DNA from: Paracyclopina nana
Lineage: Eukaryota > Arthropoda > Copepoda > Cyclopoida > Cyclopettidae
Length of the DNA stretch: 64,000 nt
Direction: 5' to 3'
NCBI GenBank assembly: GCA_019096065.1
Contig: JAGUCH010000007.1
Location: 1,510,501-1,574,500 of the forward strand
Positions 12,001-64,000 of this stretch are shown piece by piece (position 1 is the stretch's first letter; each line of letters begins with the position of its first letter). The position numbers were made by a program, and so were the translations under genes. The notes below the pieces were generated by a model. The model saw only the letters and a list, made by a program, of their open reading frames with translations. It was not told where the DNA came from and searched no databases.

Positions 12001-15000
12001 CAATGATTTGTTATTGCATATTATAATTCAAAAAGTTATTATTTTTGTAGCGTATTTCAAAATTGTACATTTACGACATTTTAGCTTATGACAATTTTTG
12101 TCGACTGAACAGTTTCAAATCAAATTATCGATGAAATGGACTTATTTCCCACTTTTCAATTTTGTTGTCATTTGCCAAAACTGATATTGAGCTCAAAAGG
12201 AAGCAAGTTTCTTTCTGCCAATTTTTGCAAATGAACACCCAAAAACAACACCCGGATGGATTTTTGGCTCAAATTATAGCCTAGGATATTGCAAGCTCAT
12301 ATAGTTATTTGTATAGGGATTTTTTAACTTTCACTGCAGAACAGTGCAGTGAATGTGAGCTGGGGTGAGTAAAATGGTGCGAAATTGGGCCAACAATTTC
12401 ATGTTTCCAACTTTCACAACTCACACATGATGATGATGATGGTGATATGCCACCACCAATTCTGCACTAAAGACATTCACTGTGAAAAGTATGATCAGTG
12501 TTGATAGCCATACTAATTGCTTGGCTTACACTGTAAACATTTTTTGCTGTTGATGTCAAAAAACTGCTTTTACAAGTTTATGCATTTTTGAAGCCCTAAA
12601 AACTTGGAATTTGGAGCCATCTGTTGAAAACTTAATTAGGCATTCAAAAAGTACACTGGCGCCCTCTGGCGGCAGAAATCAGCAACAGCAGCGTTTATTG
12701 AAGTAAGAAAGGTGTATAAGCAATTATGAGCACCATGGATAAAACCATAACGAAGATCAAAACGTTGAAAAATCGCCGAAAATTGTCATTACCAGCCACT
12801 TCGCCGCTGAAGCAACAAGCTAATCATTCCAGCAGCTTCAACAATGAAAAGCACAACAGTGAGACACATTTGGAATATGATGAAGTTGGTGCAACTAAGC
12901 TTGAAATCCCAAGGGGAAAACCGAGAAGTTTGAGCCCAAGTGAGGAATTCTTCCGCAAAACAAGCTCCATCACCTCAAGGTTGGATTCATGCTGTGACGT
13001 TTTGAAAGGCCCTAATGTTTTTTCGTAAAACAATTCAACATCATGTTACTAAAAGTTTGAAATGTTAATGGGGAACATTCTTTCAAATCACGAAAACTTA
13101 CTCATTTCACGAAAATTTGTTCATTTCACGAAAATTCGTATACTTATCGAAAATTCCGAAATTCCACGAAAATTCATTCCAATCTCGAAAATTCGTTTTC
13201 TTTACGAAGATTCATTCACTTCACGAAAATTTGTTTACTTCATGTAAATTCCGTTATTTCATGAAAATTCATTCCTATCTCAAAAATTCATTTACTTCAC
13301 GAAAATTCGTTTACTTCAAGAAAATTCATTCATTTCACGAAAATTCCTCTATTTCACGAAAATTCCTCTATTTCACGAAAATTCCTCTATTTCACGAAAA
13401 TTCCTCTATTTCACGAAAATTCCTCTATTTTACGAAGATACATTTACTTCACGAAAATCAATACATTTCACGAAAATTCCTCTATTTTAGGAAGATACAT
13501 TTACTTCACGAAAATCAATTCATTTCACGAAAATTCCTCTATTTTACGAAGATACATTTACTTCACGAAAATCAATACATTTCACGAAAATTCGATTATT
13601 TCACGAAAAAATCATTCATTTCACGAAAATTCAAATTAACTTTCAAGGCAAAATCATTCATTTCACCGATCATTTCAAAAATCGTTTCCCAAGAGAACTG
13701 GCAAAAAAGAAAAGGCATATGGGCAGTTTTTCGTCTGGCATGAATCAAATCTTCTTTTCTGAAGCCACTTGAGAAAACAATCAGATGCCTCTCTGCAAGA
13801 AGAGGAGAGTGACTTTTACAGCATTGGCCAGCACCACGACGAAAAGTTGAATGCAATGCGAAAAAGTCTGCGTAGCAGAGGCTCCAGCCTGGCCCCGCCC
13901 CCTAGCGCGGCTCCTGGCGTAGCTCCGCCCCCTGGCGCTACTTTCAGCCTGATGGCGGGGCTGAAAGGGGTCAACAGCTTCGTGGCTGCGACCGGAAGCC
14001 ACATTTCTGGCCGAAGATTGAGCAATCCGCCCTCGATGGAGCCTCAGAGTGGGGAACAAAGGCCTTTTATGATGGTGGTGGCCAAAAATGGCCAAAGGTC
14101 AAAAAGAAGTGAAAGTGTTTCAACTGTTGAAGAGGAGGCTTTGAAGTTGAGAGCTTATATGGCTGGTAGGCATGCCAGCCTGCCCATCGTGGTGGTCAAT
14201 AATGCCAATTATGTCCTCACTTCCACTAGAAGTAAGTTCACCCAATTTCTTCCAGTGGCTCTTGGATTTTTTTTTTTGGGGGCACTGAAAGATGAACTGA
14301 AAGAATAATGTCCTGTTCATGTACGCCCCAAACTCCTTAGGAAAATGCACGAAAAACATCTCAAGGAAAGGAGAAAAATTGTCTTATGGCAAGCGCCAGC
14401 TGATACTAAAAAAATCAGATTCGCTTTAAGCCAACTTGAAAGTAAACAAAACTAATTTTGGCTATTAAGTGCTCCCCATTTTAGTTCTTCTGAGCAAAAT
14501 CAATAGTTAAACATCTTTTATCAAAGAAACGTGATGACCGATAGTTTGTTTTTGAAAGAAGCTGAAAACCATGAGACAAAATAGCAAACATTGCCATTAA
14601 AAATGATGCTCGAACCCAAGCTGAACTCGTAGAGTGGCAGTCAGCAACGGATTCACTTTTCCTTGTGACAATTTTTTCCATACCCTAAGGTTTTCTTAAT
14701 ACATGAACAGGGCATAAAACCAATTGAAGGTTTCCTTTTTGGTCAAGCTCTAATGACACCGAAGAACAACATTAAGTGGGGTGTCTTGCATAAGTTGGGT
14801 CTTCAATAAGGTCGTTTATATGCATCACCAGTGAAGGCTCTGGAAACACTTTGTACTTGCAAAGAATGCCTTATTACGCCCAATTGTTTGTCCTATGCAT
14901 ATGTACTATGAGGCAACCTTAGGCTCTTATCATTGATTGCACTCATAAATTAATGTGATGTCCATTTCTCTCAGTGAAATCCGGAAAAGAAAGCTTTTTC

Positions 15001-27000: not shown

Positions 27001-30000
27001 TTATCTGATTTACTTAATGGGCCGTTCATCTACGTCCATTTTTTATCCCGAGTAAACAGACGCTTTGACAAAAACTTTGATTCTTTTGTCAAGTCTTCTG
27101 GACTGAAAAAATAAATTTATGAATCGAAAACATAAAAGTTATTTGATGATAATTTAACTTTTTGGCCAAAATTGCCCTTTTTGGCTCATAAGTTAGCTAA
27201 TCATCATTATAATTCTAAAAAAAACAATCGGAATTCTAAAAAAGCTTTCCTTTTTGGCCAAATATTGCTATCAAACTAAGGCATGGTTCGCCTGCTCATA
27301 ATATCAGATATTTTGACAAAATATCGGAGCGAAATACTGAGAAACTGAGAAATTAGATACTGTTGTAGGATGGCTTTTGGCGCCAAAAGACCGAATCCGA
27401 AGAAAAAAATTAAAAAATGATTTTGGAAGTACCTGATATTTGCAAATATGAGCATAATATCGCTCGATATTTTGATCATAATATCGCAGGTGAACCAGGC
27501 CTAACTTAGTAATAAATGAGACTCAAATTTAATCTTTACAAGTAGCTGTCAGTTTTCAAAACTAAATTCAAGCATGCGTCAAGATTTTTTCCCTAGGCTG
27601 AATTAGTAGATGAACGCCACATCATCATAGTTACGGATAAGTCTGCTACTGCTTATGTTGAATAAAAGTTGCCGTGTTGGCAGTCACATTCAGGAGATCT
27701 GCATCGATCGAGGAATTATTAGCCATCTCTATTAAGGGTTGGTATGACGTATGTACACAGTAAAGCTGAATGAGAAAGCTCAGATTTATCATCTTACATC
27801 ATGTATAAGCATTATTTTAAGCTGTGCACTATATGTGCCCTTAAAAGGGGACCTGCTCTGGCAATGTTGAATGCACAATAAATAGACGTGTATATGTATA
27901 AATTGCAGCAAATTAGCATGAAATTAATGGGCGCTAATCGTGTTTGGCCAAAATATGAACGCCCCTCTTCAATCATCACCTTAACTTACACAACATGTAT
28001 CAATTTCCTGCTTTGTTCCCAAAGCACGAAAACCTCTTTGCGTAATAGTTAAATTCATGCTGATAGCATGCATAAAATCTAGTTTTTATCAAGTCCAATA
28101 ATTGCATATTTTGATGCTGAGCAAGTTCCGCCAAAAGATGGCGCGCGAGATTTAGGCGAAAGTTGGAGTGATCGAGGCGAGCGCCACCTAGCGGATTTCT
28201 CATGCATTTTCTCCTCTTTGCAGCCTCCACCTACGCCACCTTGTAGTAGAACACCTTGTGCCTCTTCTGACCGGAAAAACTGGGACTTTTCGACCTCGGC
28301 CGCGACCTCGGAGGCCAATCATCGCATTTTGGACAAATCCACAACTGCTGACTCACGTGGAGGTAAAAACATTCCAAATATTTACTTTGCCAGCAAAATT
28401 CCAATTTGAAAATTATCGATTTTCGTTTTTATCTTTTTAATTGCTTGTTTTCAGGACTGTCACATCAGCTTTCGAGTGCCTCGACTCATTCGCTGCCCTC
28501 TCGAATTGACCATTTGACGGATTGTGAGGATGATTATGAGGATGACTCGTCCTCAGCTCTAGACATTTACGATGAATCAGCCTCTAATAGTCCTGTTATC
28601 TCAGCCTCTTCTGTCCTCCATGAGATAGGCAGTAGCAGCGATGTGGCAGCAGCAGGCCCTGGCCACAAATACAGCAGGGCCTCACACCAATTCACCAGTT
28701 GGTAAGCAAGGACTTTTCAATTGTATTTTTCCCATTTGGCTTTCAGTTTATGACACTGAAGTTCAATTATTGATGATTAATGCTGTCGTTAAAAGATGTT
28801 CCAATGCAATGTTTTTAAAATGTATTGGTCGCATGAATTTTTTACATTGTCTTGGCAATACTTTTTTATTTTTGGTGTGAGAAACTCTTTTTTGGCTTGA
28901 TTTTGTGTTCAAATCAAGTTGTGAAGTCATTAGACGTGATTGTGTTGTTCCCATTTGGCTTTCAGTTTATGATACTGAAGTTCAATTATTGATGATTAAT
29001 GCTGTCGTTAAAAGATGGTCCAATGTAATGTTTATAAAATGTATTGGTCACATGAATTTTTTACATTGTCTTGGCAATACTTTTTTATTTTTGGTGCAAA
29101 AAACTCTTTTTTGGCTTGATTTTGTGTTCAAATCAAGTTGTGAGGGCATTAGACATGATTGTGTTGTTCCCATTTGGCTTTCAGTTTATGATACTGAAGT
29201 TCAATTATTGATGATTTACACTGTCGTTAAAAGATGTTCCAATGTAATGTTTTTAAAATGTATTGGTCACATGAATTTTTTACATTGTCTTGGCAATACT
29301 TTTTTATTTTTGGTGTAAAAAACTCTTTTTTGGCTTGATTTTGTGTTCAAATCAAGTTGTGAAGTCATGAGATGTAATTGTGTTGGTCCCATTTGGCTTT
29401 CAGATTATGACACTGAAGTTCAATTTTCGATGATCTATGCTGTAGTGAAAAGATGTTGGAATAGGGCGTTCTCATATTGCATTTTAGTTTAACCAAAACT
29501 GATACTGGTTAGACCAAACTGATTGTTGCCCGGACAAAAGTCAGCATTCTTGTAGTGTTTAGTTTAACCAGAACCAGTGTGGTTTAACTCAAACCAGTTT
29601 TGGTTAGACCAAACTGCAATATGAGAACGCCCTAATGTAATGTTTATAAAATGTATTGGTCACAGGAATTTTTTATTGGCGATACTTTTTTATTTTTGGT
29701 GTGAGAAACGCTTATTTGGCTTCATTTTGTGTTCAAATCAAGTTGTGAAGTCATAAGAAGTGATTGTATTTTGCCCATTTGGCTTTCAGTTAAAGATACT
29801 GAAGTTCAATTCCTGATGATTGTTAGAAAGCAGATGTAAAACATTTTCAAGACAAAATTTAGCTAATGTGATTTGAATATGTCATTTCACCAGATTGCTT
29901 CCAGTCACCCAAACTGAAATTAAATTGTGAGGAAGGAAAGTTTCTTGCTTTGAGATTAAATAAGCCCTTTTTTCTCTTCTACTTTCGCAGCATTAGTGAC

Positions 30001-61372: not shown

Positions 61373-63232
61373 ATGAAAATGAGATTTGCACAATTAGGAG
61401 CTATTTTACTTTGCTCTCACTTGGCTTTTTCAGCCCCATTGGCTGAAAAGAGCCAAGTGTTGCCCATTGGTACCATTCTCACTTGGCATCCAATTAGCAA
61501 CACAGATATTCCCCAAGGTTGGGAATTGAGCAATGGTCAAGTTGTCACTGGTAAGCGCATTAATTGTATCCTTTGATAACTAACAATATCTTCTCTCATT
61601 AGACAAGGAGTCTCCCTTATTTGGACTTACACTTCCTCCTCTCAATACCAAAAATCTGTTTTTGAAAGGCGCTCAAGGTGACCAAGTTGGGCTGATCCAG
61701 GACGATACCCTCCCCCAACATGGCCATATTAGCAAAGGCCACACCCATAGAGATGCTGGCCACACCCATGAGGATTTGGGTCACACCCACCCTTTGAACT
61801 TGCCCAAGATTCCCCTCCCAGTTTTGCAAGAAGGTGGCAGTTACGGAGATGGGAGTGGTTCACCAAAGTGGGCCACTGCAGGCCATTGGCCTCCTAAAAG
61901 TTCAGATTTACTATATGCAAAGGCCAACATTGAAAAAGGTAATTGTAAAATCATACCTTTTCATATCTGGATCTAGCTAAGGTAATCATGTCTTTTAAAG
62001 GTTACGCTCAGCTCAGGCATGGACATGCGGATGTCACAAAGATGACTTCTGGATCATCTGGAGATGAAACAAGGCCAAAGAATGTCAAATTCCCTTTCAT
62101 CATCAAAATTAAGCATGTTGAGCAGTCACAAGTTGTCGACACAATTGTGGCCTCTTTAAGCCAAAAGACAACCAAGAATGTCAATCTTGTCGAACACTTG
62201 AACGAAGGCCACTTTTTCCTCAGGGCTGGCCTTTTGGCAGAGTTAGGCCAAGCTGAATCATTCGCTTTGCAGGACCACTCGCACGAGGATGAAGGCCACA
62301 CTCATGCAGATCTTGGGCATGGCCATGAAGACAAGGGTCATTTGCATGACTTTGAGGTACGCGATGAGCAAGGACAAAGGGCCTCCTATGATCTACTAAG
62401 GCCTGGTTCAACTTGGGGAGACAAGGATGGAGGTCCTCATTTCGGCGAAAAACTCAACATGGAAGGCAAGGTTGGAACTGGTCATGCCAACATCCAAGTA
62501 TGCTAGAATAACTTTAAAAAATTGTGTTTAACATAGCTCACTTTGCTTTTTTAAGATTTCTCAAGCTGAAATTGAGCCATCCAAGGAAATCATTGGAGCT
62601 CCAATTGGCACTAATGTAGGACTTGAAACAAGGCCCAAAAATATGAAGGTCAGGTTTCTGTTTGAGCAAATTCAGCTTCATCCGGATAACTTCCCTGTTG
62701 GAACCATCTTGCCATGGTTGTCTAACTTGGCCCAAGAGGACAAGGCTTTACCCAAAGGCTGGATAATTTACGAGCAATTGAACAGAGAGGGCAGATTTTT
62801 GAGGGGTGGATCGATCAGTGAGGTTGGAACCTTTGAGGAGTCCCAAATGCAATTCCACACCCACAAAGACAATGGACACACCCACATCGATGCTGGCCAC
62901 ACCCATCTGGATGCTGGCCACAAGGCCAAGGTAATTTAAATTAATTAATATTGATATTTAGCTCTTTACCAGCTACTTGTAAATTGAAGGTTTATGAAAT
63001 CCTTGTGCCCGGATCCAGCTATGGAGATAATGATGGCAGTCCTCGTTTTGCAAAGGATGGAACCATTTCGGTTGGCAGGTCATCCATCTCAGAGGCAAAG
63101 TCCAACCTGGCCAAGACAAGTGCCAACTTGCAGGAATCCAGGGCCCAAATTGGGAAGGTTCTGGAGGCCAATGCTGGCTCTGAAGTGACTCCCAAAAACA
63201 TTGGAGTCACTTACATTGTCAAAGTCTACTGA
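61373..63232 (+). CDS. Secreted protein with three phage tail-collar / tail-fibre-like units and His-rich heptads
   Basis: Five exons (61373-61550, 61603-61938, 62001-62497, 62556-62930, 62990-63232) give 1629 nt, 542 aa, all in phase. Residues 1-22 are a signal peptide (FAQLGAILLCSHLAFSA). Three related units follow. Each has some of these: PIGTILTW or PVGTILPW then a P-x-GW (tail-collar start, PF07484-like); FLKG / FFLRAG / RFLRGG; a run of GHTHxDx heptads; a WGD or YGD...G-P-F segment; and a closing ETRPKN...IIKI-type strand. In phage fibres this closing strand is typical (RPKN followed by an I/V-rich strand). Unit 2 has lost its GTILPW half. His-x-His clusters could bind metal. AATAAA is at 63258. 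The role in the animal is unknown; secretion is inferred from the signal peptide. Confidence 0.85.
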
Positions 63233-64000
63233 TTTTCCTTTTTTGCTCTGCACAAGCAATAAAGTTTTTTCTTTCTTACTTTTTCCATTTTTGAGTACTT
63301 GTATTTTATTGGTAGAAAAATGTTGTATGATACAAAATATCTAAATAACATTTGGCTTGTTGAATAATCAGTGATCACCAAATTTTCTCAAAATTTGGAC
63401 AGACAAAATCTACATGAGGATACATTTGTACACACAGATTATTGGAAATGGCTTTCAGCCATTGCATCTTCTAGCTTATTGACTCTTTTTTTGCTCGGAT
63501 ATGCGGTGAAAAAATGATTATTGCATTGCAAACAATTGCACACACATTATTAATAGTTGTATGGAATATTCAAAGGAACTTTTTTGGGACAAAGTCAAGC
63601 TCGAAACATTTTTTTGGCTTTTTCGTGGTTGGGTCAAGAGAGATCGATGAGGGAAAACATTTTTTGTTTTGAGCAAAGAAAGGAGATCTTTTTTCTTTTT
63701 TTTTCACCAGGAGGAGAGAAAGTGTGTGCAAAAATAGCGGAGCACTGTTGGGGGGAAAAGTCCAAACAAATTGGACTTTTCTCAACAGATATTTTACAGT
63801 ATTTTGTGGTGGGCTTATTAACTTGGTTTTTTTGGTAGAAAATGTACAAAAATGCTGCTTGAAGACATGATGATGACACACAATTGGTAGAGCTTCGTTG
63901 GTTTTTTGATCCCTTCAGTTGCAGTAGGTTTTCAGCCTTGTTCATTAAATATGGTTGGCAGTGAGATCAGCAAATACAAAATATTCTATATAAAAAATTT
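63233..64000. other. 3' flank; no gene recognised
   Basis: After the AATAAA at 63258 the sequence is AT-rich with no supported exon. A TATATAAAA sequence at 63988-63996 just before the window ends could be the TATA box of a further gene outside the window. Confidence 0.4.

Follow-up and report, generated by a model that had tools for sequence, protein, structure and literature searches.

A gene in the window (the whole stretch of 64,000 nt of Paracyclopina nana DNA analysed here) encodes a product that is best explained overall as a secreted animal protein made of three tandem receptor-binding modules of the phage tail-collar/needle type, a reading that we consider probable. Judging from profile searches, its units are almost certainly homologous to tail-collar fibres. 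Its introns, its paralogue and the purifying selection acting on it mark a nuclear gene and not a phage contaminant, as the initial annotation had held.

Gene structure, paralogue and genomic setting

The gene occupies positions 61373–63232 of the forward strand and, in the spliced reading, consists of five exons and four GT-AG introns of 52, 62, 58 and 59 bases (Table 1). The spliced coding sequence of 1629 nt translates into 542 amino acids plus a stop codon, with no internal stop. Coordinates, strand and the numbers of exons and introns had been given correctly in the initial annotation, as judged from the spliced frame and the exons of the paralogue, and the TATA promoter named there was found as well.

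Table 1. Features of the three-unit gene, with positions in the window and residues of the encoded protein
Feature	Position	Strand	Remarks
TATA box TATAAAA	61339..61345	+	34 bp 5' of ATG
Exon 1	61373..61550	+	hydrophobic N terminus, signal-peptide-like over residues 1 to about 21; unit 1 collar begins here
Exon 2	61603..61938	+	length 336, as in paralogue
Exon 3	62001..62497	+	length 497, as in paralogue
Exon 4	62556..62930	+	length 375, as in paralogue
Exon 5 with stop codon	62990..63232	+	length 243, as in paralogue
AATAAA polyadenylation signal	63258..63263	+	read from sequence, 3' of stop
Unit 1	61457..62113	+	residues about 29-209; spans introns 1 and 2; unit profile match 30-209
Unit 1 outgoing strand	61713..61793	+	four HxH: residues 99, 106, 113, 120
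Unit 1 tip loop, GDGSGSPKW	61794..61901	+	strand limits by eye
Unit 1 returning heptads	61902..62056	+	residues 160, 167, 174, 181; spans intron 2; A-x-I-type triplets
Unit 2	62123..62663	+	residues about 213-373; spans intron 3; unit profile match 233-373; collar half degenerate
Unit 2 outgoing strand	62270..62362	+	four HxH: residues 264, 271, 278, 285
Unit 2 tip loop, GDKDGGPHF	62363..62458	+	strand limits by eye
Unit 2 returning heptads	62459..62615	+	residues 334, 341; spans intron 3; A-x-I-type triplets
Unit 3	62691..63229	+	residues about 383-542; spans intron 4; unit profile match 383-542
Unit 3 outgoing strand	62850..62930	+	three HxH: residues 438, 445, 452
Unit 3 tip loop, GDNDGSPRF	62990..63061	+	strand limits by eye
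Unit 3 returning heptads	63062..63169	+	residues 500, 507, 514; A-x-I-type triplets

The N terminus is hydrophobic (11-residue hydropathy means up to 1.95), and past residue 25 no 19-residue mean exceeds 0.95, so that by this measure the protein has no membrane span. By hydropathy, the start of the chain agrees with the eukaryotic signal peptide proposed earlier and suggests that the protein is secreted.

Searches of the animal's own genome (92 Mb, 10 contigs) were run exon by exon, and the copy counts are lower bounds. The spliced protein gave at least nine matches and a single-unit relative at least six, all at the same two loci, namely the window gene and a paralogue on contig 5. The paralogue has the same five exons, with coding lengths of 172, 336, 497, 375 and 243 compared with 178, 336, 497, 375 and 243 in the window gene, a TATA box 43 bp ahead of its ATG, and a protein identical to the window protein at 388 of 540 residues (72%). 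Its exons align at 70–80% identity and its introns at 54–62%, vs 50–53% for shuffled introns. By NG86, dN is 0.199 and dS 0.780, and four methods gave a dN/dS of 0.26–0.29. This comparison supports every exon boundary as well as purifying selection. A first protein search recovered 19 proteins, seven of them 44–48% identical over 94–100% of the query; these seven full-length relatives come from contigs under 2 kb or have no contig data. Their frames read through splice junctions 1 to 3 uninterrupted. Junction 4 coincides with a gap in one relative (P0007) and with two extra residues in three of the remaining six. Thus, the gene model is supported by the paralogue and by the relatives' frames, which run across the junctions.

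Pfam matches were obtained for three of the nine other window ORFs submitted (SH2 domain, tyrosine phosphatase and LRRFIP), and the contig was therefore taken as animal nuclear. The phage-like sequence by itself would fit contamination by a bacterium or phage, or a virus that inserted recently. This explanation has a negligible probability in view of the four introns, the TATA box, the paralogue with the same exons on another contig at a dS of 0.78 and the nearby ORFs with the three matches just named; the introns, the same-exon paralogue and the animal-type window ORFs rule it out.

Other observations concern the surroundings of the gene. A BTB-domain protein lies just 3' of the window (L025:3327-4589, minus strand). 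By eye, the open frame at window positions 13069-13743 consists of a degenerate tandem repeat (FTKI/HENS-like units) and is probably a minisatellite and not a gene, and two near-identical copies within one open frame at 28881-29318 represent a local direct duplication.

Unit architecture and likeness to tail-collar fibres

Every unit follows the same order. A collar half is followed by a run of HxH (His-x-His) motifs and then by a tip loop that carries G-D; heptads of the A-x-I type lead back, and E(T/V)xPxN forms the closing strand. The collar half of unit 2 is degenerate and without GW..CNG, and unit 3 of the window protein is without the CNG part. Three tandem collar-like units had been proposed from the outset; the unit profile, whose seed includes window units 1, 2 and 3 themselves, and the PHROG matches given below bear this out, with the degenerate collar half of the middle unit as a qualification.

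The window protein contains 12 HxH motifs, in runs of four, four and three exactly seven residues apart, with one more outside the runs at residue 178. Composition shuffles reached neither 12 HxH (0/20000) nor eight seven-residue spacings (0/20000). Gly precedes eight of the 11 heptad HxH. The Gly-His-x-His heptads noticed initially are therefore present beyond chance, but they were misplaced: they lie inside each unit, from collar half to closing strand, and not between the units. In eight family rows, 20 of the 22 heptad His are invariant and the remaining two are kept in seven rows, as against 114 invariant positions among the 520 others (p 3e-11) and two among the 12 other His. The outgoing strands thus carry repeated and conserved HxH, as an HxH needle does, at a spacing unlike that of T4 gp37. 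A strict tip pattern, G-D followed by P-x-(F/W/Y/I), was found in all three units of five of nine proteins (window protein, paralogue, P0001, P0005 and P0006); the remaining four proteins show it in one or two of their units. Past residue 22, the window protein and its paralogue have no cysteine and no N-glycosylation sequon; in the seven full-length relatives, cysteines number 1 to 4 and sequons 0 to 3.

Between the paralogues, with the limits of tip, strand and collar drawn by eye, identity was lower in the tips (54/92) than in collar plus outgoing strand (252/322, p 0.0003). The returning strands are also more divergent (63/100, p 0.004; outgoing strands 66/85, collar 186/237), so faster change is not peculiar to the tips.

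The likeness to tail-collar fibres is most evident in PHROG, in which the five best matches all belong to the category tail and three are named tail collar fibre (E 1.5e-11 to 5.1e-8); by these matches the protein falls within the tail-collar fibre groups phrog_523 (1.5e-11), phrog_327 (5.7e-9) and phrog_910 (1.2e-8). When an 8-row family profile was run against the PDB, T4 gp12 (1ocy) was the best of five sequences at E up to 10, with a whole-sequence E of 1.7e-4. This match sums three pieces in collinear order, covering the collar half, the HxH and the closing strand with ETRP, with i-Evalues of 1.7, 740 and 5.4, none significant singly. A 17-row unit profile recovered gp12 and another short tail fibre, both at a whole-sequence E of 1.3e-7, and matched 1ocy in one stretch over profile positions 2-173 (i-Evalue 1.4e-4); this profile includes P0017 and P0018, and P0018 alone matches gp12 at 1.3e-6. 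P0018 alone also matches the long tail fibre 8kec (E 4.9e-10). A single-sequence PDB search with the window protein returned no fibre (best E 0.36, an unrelated chain), and the T4 gp37 structure 2XGF was absent among the matches listed in the single-sequence, family-profile, P0018 and unit-profile PDB searches. Hence the likeness to tail-collar fibres stated in the initial annotation is upheld by PHROG and by the family-profile match to gp12; of the checks suggested there, comparison with gp12 succeeded by family profile, with no piece significant alone, and failed by single sequence.

The PF07484 (Phage Tail Collar) profile, another of those checks, came out negative, with 13.4 bits and E 0.076 for the window protein at a cut-off of 24. 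PF14928 (Short tail fibre receptor-binding domain) likewise remained below its cut-off of 23.8 (12.4 bits, E 0.21). By Pfam's rule the protein is a member of neither family, and we class it as a homologue, not a Pfam member. Seven animal-type relatives all scored below the PF07484 gathering score as well (best P0001, 22.7). In the animal's own genome the PF07484 profile gave no hits though a control matched in four of 14 genomes, and the curated model is therefore too narrow here.

Relatives, needles in viruses and bacteria, and origin

Two further protein searches returned 43 and 101 proteins. Among the 101, an AIG1 GTPase precedes one collar unit in 12 of 36 scanned proteins. One relative, P0016, has COLFI (fibrillar-collagen C-terminal) and Fibrinogen_C matches above their cut-offs. 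Their domain partners suggest that these AIG1- and fibrinogen-joined collar proteins come from animals. The few names attached to recovered proteins include no animal. P0012, P0015, P0019, P0031 and, in part, P0044–P0067 combine an AIG1/GIMAP-like GTPase with one C-terminal collar, separated by a stretch that looks coiled-coil-like by eye and in weak Pfam matches, and are probably animal; several AIG1-collar proteins have a hydrophobic start and look like secreted GTPases with a phage-type tip. In the copepod's own genome, the AIG1-like part of P0015 has matches with no collar match beside them at C2:4467751-4468584, C8:2040334-2041197, C7:1616682-1617357 and C2:1963043-1963783. Ranking next behind the seven full-length relatives as a match to the window protein is P0008 (25% identity over 76%), a probably bacterial protein on a 101-kb contig with three tandem short-collar units and no His heptads.

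Scanning the DNA of predicted viral contigs for GHxHxDxGHxH yielded 117 stretches. The motif is held by 110 ORFs, some plainly in the wrong frame, with a run of two in 105 and of three to six in five; a return run is present in 19 of the 110. The clearest double-heptad builds are those of the viral-contig ORF L130 (six HxH and six return repeats) and of P0018 on a 42-kb contig (11 and five), and thus the double-heptad needle is not an animal invention. The collars of L130 and P0018 are of the long kind, those of the animal proteins of the short kind. The short collar is common to bacterial MAG proteins (Spirochaetales, SAR324, Elusimicrobia, Kapabacteria and others), with 14 of 30 bacterial loci at E 1e-23 or better (L143–L156) and four of 11 predicted viral-contig loci at 3e-21 or better (L173–L176). 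A SAR324 protein (L144:3785-4441) with a short collar, two HxH seven apart and a YANL triplet resembles a small version of the animal needle. Searching 50,697 phage records by tblastn with P0001 gave no match at E 1e-5, and P0018 matched 943 of them, none over more than 80% of its length; hence there is no close relative of the animal protein among the deposited phage proteins searched. Weak, sub-cut-off similarity to the Bdellovibrio MAT domain NF053851 was seen in nine of 13 bacterial-type collar proteins scanned (P0017, P0027, P0028, P0035, P0036, P0038, P0040, L146 and L155; none in P0008, P0018, P0039 and L144), a hint of MAT-like fibres with collar tips across several bacterial phyla. 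The window protein itself had no NCBIfam match at E up to 1 when tested for the MAT superfamily.

For phylogeny, 71 units were aligned over 129 columns. The tree leaves out all middle units, all units of P0002, P0007, P0026, P0040, L152, L159 and L175, all but one unit of P0041 and P0043, and eight of the ten GHxH viral-contig ORFs; outside it are also the weaker Bartonella and Leptospiraceae matches (L160–L172), L178–L183 and the 93 new proteins of the largest search. Unit 1 of seven three-unit proteins groups together (bootstrap 89), and so does unit 3 (99), which supports a triplication before the sampled relatives split. The nine long-collar rows, two bacterial MAG proteins among them, split off with a support of 100, and the animal units fall with the short-collar rows (27 from bacterial MAG or unplaced contigs, three from predicted viral contigs). 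Unit 3 joins the single-unit animal proteins with a support of 52. In the consensus of the full search, unit 1 lies outside a group of bacteria, unit 3 and single-unit animals (bootstrap 81), and a quick tree, 45 log units worse, has all animal units on one side (SH-aLRT 95). The AU test keeps both the best tree (p 0.54) and a tree constrained to one animal origin (p 0.46, 2.4 log units worse). The initial annotation had offered transfer from a phage or bacterium followed by triplication as one possible origin. The triplication before the split gains support, and a single animal origin is favoured neither way. As the animal units group with the short-collar rows, apart from the long-collar ones, a bacterium would be a donor candidate no weaker than a phage.

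Proposed fibre, its role and known systems

By analogy with solved fibres, the protein quite likely forms a trimer that holds metal. Three chains would intertwine, with the collar holding the base of a needle. Each chain would run out along the needle with one HxH per seven residues, turn in the tip loop, return along the A-x-I-type heptads and close in the collar with E(T/V)xPxN. In each HxH layer, one metal ion would be bound by six His from the three chains, an arrangement seen in T4 gp37 and R-pyocin fibres, and with one metal per layer a trimer could hold up to 11 ions. As the mature chain is without cysteine or sequon, metals and intertwining would replace disulphides, and the tips would be the likely binding surface. 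Such octahedral six-His iron sites are built from one HxH per chain, and gp12 carries zinc at its HxH, with some doubt as to whether this is the natural metal (both from excerpts of PMC6116203). AlphaFold2 monomer predictions gave a mean pLDDT of 27.7 for the relative P0002 (seven rows) and of 44.5 for P0018 (no alignment), in which the return heptads were drawn helical at a pLDDT of about 71-82; both models are too poor to judge the fold. No solved structure of a needle with strict seven-residue spacing is known to us.

Most likely the protein would serve in recognition or adhesion outside the cell, with microbial glycans met in defence of the gut or body fluid as a possible target, and surface recognition is favoured because related proteins join the collar to AIG1 GTPases or fibrinogen-like domains. 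Binding of microbes or glycans as such is plausible, if somewhat short of an even call. More tentatively, planktonic animals might possess a whole class of secreted recognition proteins in which domesticated phage or bacterial fibre tips grip microbes by metal-stapled needles; the tips would be triplicated on one chain, or carried by secreted AIG1/GIMAP-like GTPases, coiled coils or fibrinogen-like domains. If true, animals would have an innate-immune recognition fold derived from viruses or bacteria and so far not known in them, having adopted a host-gripping fibre of the virus type, triplicated it and retained it under selection. The protein can be tested for metal, trimer and ligand, and may represent an animal recognition class missed by the curated Pfam cut-off.

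The same trimeric fibre could instead be structural, part of an egg, cuticle, house or glue matrix held by metals and with no microbial ligand. Three repeated units per chain suit a strut, full-length relatives were kept over a long divergence, a TATA box with a short leader is compatible with strong expression, and P0016 carries its COLFI match. The commoner partner, the AIG1 GTPase, is not matrix-like, however, the genome searches recovered two gene copies and no more (a lower bound) and gp12-type collars are binding domains, so we regard a purely structural role as unlikely, though worth bearing in mind. That the protein is a secreted metal carrier or scavenger, its HxH ladder binding iron, zinc or copper and the fibre serving as a frame only, appears improbable: the 22 heptad His, 20 of them invariant, would suit it, but six-His sites of the HxH type are structural sites in solved fibres, and metal carriage leaves the conserved tip motif unexplained. 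The geometry of such sites (excerpts of PMC6116203) weighs on the same side, and the proposal that phage HxH fibres act as iron-binding ligands in sea water (excerpts of PMC11705849) speaks for the carrier.

We see just as little probability in an alpha-helical reading, with a collar on helical, coiled-coil stalks and no beta needle, to which the seven-residue period and the helical drawing of the P0018 return heptads by AlphaFold2 without alignment lend some weight. His at i/i+2 and A-x-I at i/i+2 put side chains on one face of a strand and not of a helix, Gly stands before most heptad HxH (8/11), and the homology is to gp12-type fibres.

Among the matches listed in the open-licence literature, viewed as titles, abstracts and excerpts, no animal gene of the three-unit needle kind was found described. 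Tail-collar domains do occur among eukaryotes and their viruses, in virophages, giant viruses and Plasmodiophora (PMC9530463, PMC3671162, PMC12724248); these cases are viral or protist, and the excerpts of the three papers mention neither an animal nor a three-unit needle. The units resemble the T4 gp12 short tail fibre (1ocy, 1pdi) in the order in which collar half, HxH and ETRP closing strand follow one another, but gp12 is a single unit with a longer collar and its sole HxH at residue 445, compared with three units of short collar, 11 heptad HxH in all and the gene structure of an animal here. The tip of the T4 gp37 long tail fibre (2XGF), solved with seven iron ions (excerpts of PMC11705849 and PMC6116203), shares the needle of repeated HxH, whose spacing is irregular in gp37 (141, 32, 14, 37, 14, 9, 9). 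The needle is shared with the long-collar fibres (viral-contig ORFs L130 and L127, P0018 and P0034), with GHxHxDx and A-N-I double heptads in a seven-residue register; unlike the animal protein they have a long collar with a G(D/N)GxTTFN(L/I/V)PD loop and one unit, and a Pfam scan of P0018 found a collar only. The secreted-looking bacterial proteins share the short collar and closing strand but mostly have one HxH and no needle, and some have a weakly NF053851-like N terminus (best 36.9 bits, cut-off 60) of the MAT-like kind that the animal protein is without. Another animal protein with a phage-type domain is MyRF, which carries S74. It is touched on in excerpts of PMC10769870, as is the MAT superfamily, with a conserved beta-rich domain of about 130 amino acids after the signal peptide. 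MAT fibres are trimers, one of which attaches to glycans on a surface (same excerpts), a precedent for cells that use phage-like trimeric fibres in this way; predatory bacteria with such fibres would be a parallel to the animal case.
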